From: Patescibacteria group bacterium
GTDB taxonomy: Bacteria; Patescibacteriota; Patescibacteriia; Buchananbacterales; GWA2-38-13
DNA: 39,393 nt
Direction: 5' to 3'
Assembly: GCA_028712155.1 (NCBI GenBank)
Contig: JAQTQO010000011.1
Span: 1 to 39,393, forward strand
The notes below the pieces were generated by a model. The model was not told the origin of the DNA. It did not search any database and saw nothing but the letters and a program-made list of their open reading frames with translations. Below are positions 1,970 through 6,430 of this stretch, one piece after another (positions within the stretch are counted from its first letter, which is position 1; the number at the start of each line of letters is the position of its first letter). The position numbers and the translations under genes are program-made.

Positions 1970-3874
<1,905 letters not shown>

Positions 3875-3892
3875 TTTGTAGGATTTTTGAAA

Positions 3893-3918
3893 GGGCGGGG
3901 CCAGGAGGGGCCCCGCCC
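3893..3918 (+). repeat. 10-bp all-GC hairpin with AGGAGG loop between dnaK and the TIR gene
   Basis: GGGCGGGGCC-AGGAGG-GGCCCCGCCC. Confidence 0.9.
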
Positions 3919-3925
3919 AAAGAAT

Positions 3926-4942
3926 ATGGATCCGATAGTTGAAACGCTCCAAAATATTTTGTTATTAAAAGGACATAGCTACCTTTCGAGTTTGTTGTAT
4001 GATTCAAGTTACGAGATTATTCAATCTGGCCAGTATGGGAGTAAATGGAATTCCATAATTTCCAAGTTTGTAATTTATTTACCAGTACAAAATTACTTCA
4101 AACTTAGAAATTACTTTGATTCTGCAAAGGAATTGTTATTAGAGTGTGTACGCGATATATACCCAGTTACCGACGATGCACCCGAAATTGTAGCTGTTGA
4201 GTTTCGGATATTAATACCGGGCACGAATACTAAGGTTGATTTTTCAAGTCAGGCTATAAATGAGGAGTCACTACGTAAGGTATTCATTAGTTACTCCACT
4301 CAAAACAGCGCGCTCGCCGGTCAATTAAAAATAATTTTAGAGGAGATGGGATTTGATGCTTTTTTAGCCCATGAAGACATCAATCCTTCAGCTGAATGGC
4401 AGGAAACAATTTTGAATATTCTTGGTGAGTCAGGAATATTTATTCCCATTATTACAGAAAGTTATCATGGATCAAATTGGACAGACCAAGAATCCGGGAT
4501 TGCGATGTATACAAAAAAAATTGTGTTGCCAATCTGTGTCGTTGGTTGTAAACCATATGGATTTTTATCTAAGTACCAGGCTATGTTTATTGCAGCGAAT
4601 GATGTTAATTCTATTACCGCAGATAGTATTTATAGGGTTTTGGTAAAAGTAAATCCAGTGATTGCGAAACGGTTGTTATCACAACTGCTTATTTCATTTT
4701 CGGAAAGTCAAAATTATTTTCAATCAGGCGCAAAATCGGAATTAATATTAAGATTATTCAGTGAAAAGCTTGACAAGAAGGATGTGAATAAAATATTCGA
4801 AAGTTTTCTTGCAAATTCACAGATTAGAGAATGCATATTGGCACGACCAAATTTGTATAGTCTTTTTCAGCGGCACAGAAAAGCAATTAGTCCAACCATA
4901 CTAAATAGAATAAGAGATGTCGTTCCGAAGTGGTTTTCTTAA
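3926..4942 (+). CDS. TIR-domain protein with uncharacterised N- and C-terminal regions; AT-rich, probably horizontally acquired
   Basis: 'KVFISYSTQNSALAGQLKIILEEMGFDAFLAHEDINPSAEWQETI...SGIFIPIITESYHGSNWTDQESGIA' matches the TIR pattern including the SxW..xE region; start at ATG 3926. Confidence 0.85.
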   Translation: MDPIVETLQNILLLKGHSYLSSLLYDSSYEIIQSGQYGSKWNSIISKFVIYLPVQNYFKLRNYFDSAKELLLECVRDIYPVTDDAPEIVAVEFRILIPGTNTKVDFSSQAINEESLRKVFISYSTQNSALAGQLKIILEEMGFDAFLAHEDINPSAEWQETILNILGESGIFIPIITESYHGSNWTDQESGIAMYTKKIVLPICVVGCKPYGFLSKYQAMFIAANDVNSITADSIYRVLVKVNPVIAKRLLSQLLISFSESQNYFQSGAKSELILRLFSEKLDKKDVNKIFESFLANSQIRECILARPNLYSLFQRHRKAISPTILNRIRDVVPKWFS

Positions 4943-4946
4943 CTGT

Positions 4947-5279
4947 ATGAAAACCTACAACAAGCTCATCCGCGATAGGATTCCGGAAATAATTGCTGCG
5001 AAAGGGGAGAAGGCGGTGACGCGGATTTTGAATGATGAGGAATTCGGCAGGGCGCTTATGGCGAAGTTGGTGGAAGAGGCAAAGGAAGCGGAAGCGACCG
5101 CCGGAGACAAAACCGAACTGACCAAAGAAATCGGCGATGTGTGGGAAGTCATCGAAGCGCTGATCACTCACTTTGGTTTAGACCAGCAGGAAATTGCCCG
5201 CATCAAAGCGAAACGCCGGGCTGAGCGCGGTGGATTTGCGAAGAAAATTTTTTTGGAGTCGGTCGGCGGGAATAAATAG
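4947..5279 (+). CDS. MazG-like / phosphoribosyl-ATP pyrophosphohydrolase-like nucleotide pyrophosphohydrolase
   Basis: 'YNKLIRDRIPEIIAAKG...KLVEEAKEAEAT...ELTKEIGDVWEVIEALI' all-alpha NTP-PPase pattern (EExxE...ExxD). Confidence 0.85.
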   Translation: MKTYNKLIRDRIPEIIAAKGEKAVTRILNDEEFGRALMAKLVEEAKEAEATAGDKTELTKEIGDVWEVIEALITHFGLDQQEIARIKAKRRAERGGFAKKIFLESVGGNK

Positions 5280-6121: not shown

Positions 6122-6430
6122 ATGGCCGAACAACAGTCCGGCGCACCCGGCGGCATCCAGGTGAAAGCCAGCGAAGAGCTGCTCAAGGGCAAGTACTCGA
6201 CGCATATGCAGGTGCTGCATACGCGCGAGGAATTCATTCTGGATTTCATGCTGATGGTGCCGCCGCTGGCGCAGCTGGTTTCGCGCTTGCTCGTCTCCCC
6301 GGCGCACTTCAAACGGCTGGTGCGCGCGCTGACGGAGAATCTCGCCCGCTACGAGAAGCAGTACGGGAAAATTGACGCGGGCGTGAAACCCTCCGACGAG
6401 CATCGGGAAGTCGGATTCCAGGTGGAATAA
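6122..6430 (+). CDS. DUF3467-family protein
   Basis: 'GKYSTHMQVLHTREEFILDFMLMVPP...LVSRLLVSPAHFKRLVRALTENLARYEKQYGKI'. Confidence 0.8.
   Translation: MAEQQSGAPGGIQVKASEELLKGKYSTHMQVLHTREEFILDFMLMVPPLAQLVSRLLVSPAHFKRLVRALTENLARYEKQYGKIDAGVKPSDEHREVGFQVE

Follow-up and report, generated by a model that had tools for sequence, protein, structure and literature searches.

The DNA analysed here (the window, 39,393 nucleotides) carries a gene for a TIR-domain protein directly downstream of dnaK, and the window features given below with coordinates lie on the forward strand. dnaK (positions 1970-3874; 68-77% identity to 16 relatives) is the left neighbour of the TIR gene (3926-4942), which runs from an ATG at 3926 to a TAA at 4940-4942 and, as judged by translation, encodes an intact protein of 338 amino acids with neither a stop codon nor a frameshift in its reading frame. 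The first-pass annotation had set the start of the gene at 3893, where there is no start codon; ATG 3926 is the likely start, and an in-frame TTG at 3887 is a possible alternative. It had also described an insertion between dnaK and dnaJ. The position directly after dnaK is correct, but three genes precede dnaJ: a MazG/PRA-PH-like pyrophosphohydrolase gene (4947-5279), located 4 nt past the TIR stop codon and intermediate in GC content (51.5%), an ORF of 249 amino acids, and a DUF3467 gene (6122-6430), which is an ancestral neighbour in the dnaK-dnaJ interval. The 5′ junction of the insertion is occupied by a hairpin (3893-3918) with a perfect 10-bp GC-rich stem and an AGGAGG loop, which occurs once in the genome and has a folding z of -2.9. 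The loop is Shine-Dalgarno-like, with ATG 3926 standing 17 nt downstream of it, and the hairpin could hide or expose the translation of the TIR gene. A role of this hairpin as an intrinsic terminator was rejected in a terminator scan, as it has no T run.

The composition of the TIR gene differs sharply from that of its surroundings. The abrupt GC drop reported earlier at the 3′ side of dnaK is reproduced in positions 4081-4140 (26.7%) and 4741-4800 (25.0%), and the low-GC stretch begins just past the dnaK stop codon and ends at the next gene. The GC content of the whole gene is 35% (GC3 30.8%), compared with 59.6% (SD 1.8, minimum 56.2) and a GC3 of 71% (SD 3.5) for the remaining 29 long non-overlapping ORFs of the window. 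The GC content of the TIR gene, more than 13 SD under that of these 29 ORFs, is far outside chance. Such an abrupt change, in a metagenome-assembled genome (MAG) of 72 contigs with 2.8% contamination, might also arise if foreign reads had been joined into the contig during assembly or binning. This artefact is highly improbable, since the foreign stretch spans a single gene, its two ends coincide with gene borders, and the 39-kb contig continues with normal host sequence on either side.

The dnaK loci of 16 related genomes, all from other genera, were read over about 1.5 kb of flank each. No TIR gene follows dnaK over this distance in any of the 16, including a genome of the same family (G001), nor does a MazG-like gene; the latter may have come with the same insertion or with an older one. 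In the genomes with a sufficiently long flank, the next genes after dnaK are DUF3467 and/or dnaJ, or else other insertions. Gene content between dnaK and dnaJ varies across the order (L025-L034), with putative ion exchangers (as two genes or a single one), small ORFs and DUF3467 each present in some genomes and absent from others. A genome-wide search of 55 relatives returned one match besides the genome itself, to the N-terminal domain alone, and within its own 1.44-Mb genome the window ORF is the sole match to itself and the sole TIR_2 match. As the TIR gene is missing from the dnaK loci of the relatives, its acquisition is lineage-specific and recent, and the foreign composition together with this absence bears out the earlier suggestion of horizontal transfer. 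Neither a transposase nor a target-site duplication was found around the insertion. The location directly behind dnaK would also suit a role in the stress response instead of one against phage, but this position is not conserved.

The protein comprises an N-terminal domain, a central TIR domain and a C-terminal tail. The TIR domain (4277-4594; residues about 118-223) was delimited by the Pfam TIR_2 match (residues 119-220, 7e-15) and by alignment to SARM1, AbTir and plant TIR structures, and the TIR domains of SARM1 and SPARTA are matched by a full-length model built from 12 sequences (mean pLDDT 77), which substantiates the central TIR domain of the annotation. The junction between TIR domain and tail is partly weak in this model (residues 214-217, pLDDT below 50). 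The W-T-D-Q-E segment with a catalytic-type glutamate, as recognized previously, corresponds to W185 (codon 4478-4480) and E189 (codon 4490-4492), the latter at the place of the helix alpha-C glutamate of TIR NADases. E189 is conserved across the aligned TIR relatives, and the profile of the TIR-plus-tail family matches solved NADase TIRs (plant TIR 7xoz, AbTir, SARM1 and Cat1) with the WxxxE-type glutamate aligned. In this alignment SkWtdQE lies opposite SSWCLDE of the plant enzyme 7xoz, the segment that holds its catalytic glutamate.

Among curated families outside Pfam, the best match is NCBIfam ThcB4 (Thoeris type III; 5e-16, residues 115-249), and the PADLOC ThsB model also matches (8e-10). 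The protein shares with ThsB and ThcB4 the TIR domain and a similar overall length, raising the alternative of Thoeris-like signalling, in which the TIR domain would make a cyclic ADP-ribose signal activating a separate effector elsewhere in the genome. The ThcB4 score, however, reaches 58.5 bits where the family cut-off is 220, and the match is confined to the TIR region, leaving the flanks unmatched; the protein was therefore not filed as Thoeris. No ThsA-type or other effector gene is present among the immediate neighbours checked (dnaK, the MazG-like gene, the 249-aa ORF and the DUF3467 gene), in line with the stand-alone character first proposed. Moreover, where these flanks recur they are joined to HEPN-like or membrane modules, and such modules would act directly. 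On this evidence, Thoeris-like signalling is unlikely. No defence island or further defence gene was seen near the TIR gene in the window.

The N-terminal domain (3926-4240; residues 1-105) is an alpha+beta domain with a QYGS hairpin-turn motif (codons 4031-4042). An AlphaFold model from the single sequence (mean pLDDT 79) has the order helix-helix-strand-strand-helix-strand. The domain has no match in Pfam, and its fold has no significant match among PDB and viral structures. The regions at both ends had been described as matching nothing; relatives of the N-domain nevertheless occur in at least three other genomes, and the tail is common to a wider TIR family. The three genomes are two Patescibacteria and one Aenigmatarchaeota MAG, with 33-38% identity and an invariant core of QYGS, IY[VL]P and IYP....[AS]PE. 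In Kerfeldbacteria (L004/L007), the domain forms a protein of 174 aa with a C-terminal hydrophobic helix, and the gene adjoins an HsdS gene. In Berkelbacteria (L005/L008), it belongs to a protein of 467 aa, encoded by a gene that overlaps a type IIG restriction-modification (RM) gene at the latter's end; in L005 this RM gene lies downstream of a PLD/SNF2 (DrmD-like) helicase gene. The Aenigmatarchaeota protein (L006) has 179 aa and a terminal hydrophobic helix, and an AIPR gene is located on the same contig. Two uncharacterised, possibly HEPN-like proteins are encoded between this AIPR gene and the gene for the N-domain and membrane helix (L006, 4344-6178). The domain is rare, being detected in 2 of 381 genomes of the class (its own included) and 1 of 156 of the archaeal phylum. 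Five weak matches to its profile within the phylum (about 17 bits) were dismissed; some contained stops or were short stretches, and in the two that were inspected, L011 and L013, such a protein was absent. Matches to armadillo proteins were ignored, as they comprised 30 residues of designed repeat and failed as single stretches. Direct pattern scans with the whole protein found nothing in the genome and viral collections, and there was no match in phage records.

TIR relatives from plasmids and viral contigs differ in their N-termini, several of which carry YDNWxGG in place of QYGS. The YDNWxGG domain also precedes AbiJ_NTD3 plus Abi_C in Gemmobacter, a region in Burkholderia that weakly matches DUF559 and may be a nuclease, and an uncharacterised region in Haliscomenobacter. 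In an hhalign comparison, the N-domain aligned to the YDNWxGG profile with an E-value of 2e-4 and a score of 28.3, against 22.8 for the best of 200 column shuffles and 20.8 for the reversed profile, YDNW corresponding to QYGS. The N-domain is thus likely a divergent YDNWxGG domain of common origin. TRADD-N and the effector-associated adaptor domains, in which a small alpha+beta adaptor is joined to varied conflict effectors (PMC8195603), offer a further comparison: the N-domain is likewise small and alpha+beta, and has Gly-Ser in the turn between two hairpin strands as in TRADD-N, whereas the first beta strand is missing in its model. TRADD-N identity, considered for this Gly-Ser turn, was dropped after no match was obtained in Pfam, PDB sequences or the listed PDB folds.

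The C-terminal tail (4595-4939; residues 224-338) is all-helical and common to the TIR relatives. For two of these, L042 and L047, the tail gives matches of 1.6e-8 and 1.6e-6 to residues 329-422, the C-terminus of PD-T7-3. PD-T7-3 is a defence protein found by functional selection (PMC9519451) and is listed with a HEPN domain (PMC10952713). The window protein itself has no significant match to the PD-T7-3 model, neither at full length nor with the tail, and its link to PD-T7-3 is transitive, through the TIR relatives. A search for the PD-T7-3 family gave zero matches in 287 Patescibacteria, but also zero in 14 controls, and therefore says nothing on its absence. The proposal of an undescribed immune effector has to be revised in this light, as the tail is that of a TIR family with further matches to PD-T7-3, and relatives of the N-domain exist. 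Eight of 13 tail-bearing proteins (L047, L049, L050, L051, L052, L053, the Klebsiella plasmid protein P0011 and Berkelbacteria P0002) end in a [DE]x[ILVA]PF tip (DDIPF, DDAVPF, DDLPF or EAIPF), which resembles the C-terminal tip of bacterial SSB; no paper on such a tip in these tails was found. The tip is absent from the window protein and from L042/L043, as well as from two plasmid proteins. The missing tip and the isolated copy might suggest a catalytically dead TIR scaffold or a decaying gene. This explanation is very unlikely, considering that the frame is uninterrupted and that the TIR core and its glutamate are conserved.

The strongest evidence for effector exchange comes from the 467-aa Berkelbacteria protein, P0002. 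Its N-domain is 36% identical to that of the window protein over 99 aa (4e-15), and the tail profile aligns with its C-terminus at 2e-5 (hhalign; score 37.6 against 23.9 for the best of 150 shuffles). The centre contains RNSCSH (R225), which fits the R-x4-H motif of HEPN RNases; no Pfam model matched this region, and from the motif we infer it to be HEPN-like. P0002 thus has both flanks in common with the window protein, with a HEPN-like centre in place of the TIR domain.

Regarding the genomic context of the relatives, L050 (1341-9834) is a complete type I RM operon encoding HsdM, HsdS, an FRG-domain protein, a YDNW-TIR protein and HsdR, in which the two extra genes (FRG and TIR) sit between HsdS and HsdR. 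L042 adjoins a phage tail gene, and a Pseudarthrobacter relative is close to methyltransferase and helicase genes. In the viral contig L052 (1862-3728), a TIR gene is directly followed by a gene for a trypsin-like protease, which is a possible two-gene defence cassette. As no N6_Mtase match was detected in the whole genome of the window, the restriction-operon setting of the relatives is missing at its own TIR gene. The context of the relatives also bears on a host-directed role. Patescibacteria are mostly epibionts, and TIR proteins such as BtpA, which is among the fold matches, act on hosts, so that the target of the protein, as an effector or a regulator, might be the microbial host of a probably host-dependent bacterium. 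However, no obvious secretion signal is visible by eye in the N-terminal sequence, and relatives of both flanking modules are found in restriction operons, prophages and plasmids. A host-directed function, or the stress-response function considered above, is accordingly quite unlikely.

Taken as a whole, the gene is most plausibly read as encoding a stand-alone, horizontally acquired TIR NADase of the abortive-infection type, built on a chassis with exchangeable effectors; we assign this reading a probability of roughly 0.62. Weighing against it are the missing defence island and restriction-operon setting, the transitive link of its tail to PD-T7-3 and the weak part of the TIR-tail junction in the model. 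The N-domain and/or the helical tail would hold the protein in check and sense a cue of infection, upon which the TIR domains would be released or clustered. E189 would then cleave NAD+, and the cell would stop or die before phage are made. The flanking modules would constitute the chassis, paired elsewhere with a HEPN-like RNase, and the N-domain alone with a membrane helix. A known precedent is SpbK of Bacillus subtilis, a stand-alone TIR NADase abortive-infection protein whose TIR domains are clustered by a phage portal protein (PMC12847820). Both are single TIR proteins, SpbK being an NADase that aborts infection after TIR clustering and the window protein a putative one. In contrast, the portal-protein trigger is that of SpbK, which meets the window protein as a TIR fold match only, with the flanks outside that comparison. 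BxaP, a structural relative of PD-T7-3, is reported from type 3 BREX loci and from phage type I RM loci, and confers protection by itself with an abortive phenotype (PMC10799925). The likeness lies in the restriction-locus setting, as for the relatives of the window protein, and, for PD-T7-3, in the C-terminus matched by the tails of its TIR relatives; the effector differs, being HEPN (PMC10952713) or DUF4145-like in PD-T7-3 and BxaP and TIR in the window protein.

A broader and more tentative proposal, to which we give somewhat less than even odds, is that these proteins represent a general immune chassis across bacteria and DPANN archaea, in which TIR NADases and HEPN RNases are exchanged between an N-terminal sensor or adaptor and a helical tail. 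The N-domain alone would also be mounted on a membrane helix, many members would serve in restriction operons as a fail-safe, and several DDIPF-like tips would couple sensing to proteins of replication or repair. What makes the finding valuable is less the TIR domain itself than its modular flanks. Constant flanks with different effectors between them lead to the prediction that the flanks recognise the trigger and that this recognition can be swapped, and the lone TIR gene thereby becomes a testable case of modular immunity. In the papers searched, nothing was found on TIR antiphage defence in Patescibacteria; the present analysis connects PD-T7-3-type HEPN defence proteins with a TIR family and adds a putative defence effector for Patescibacteria.
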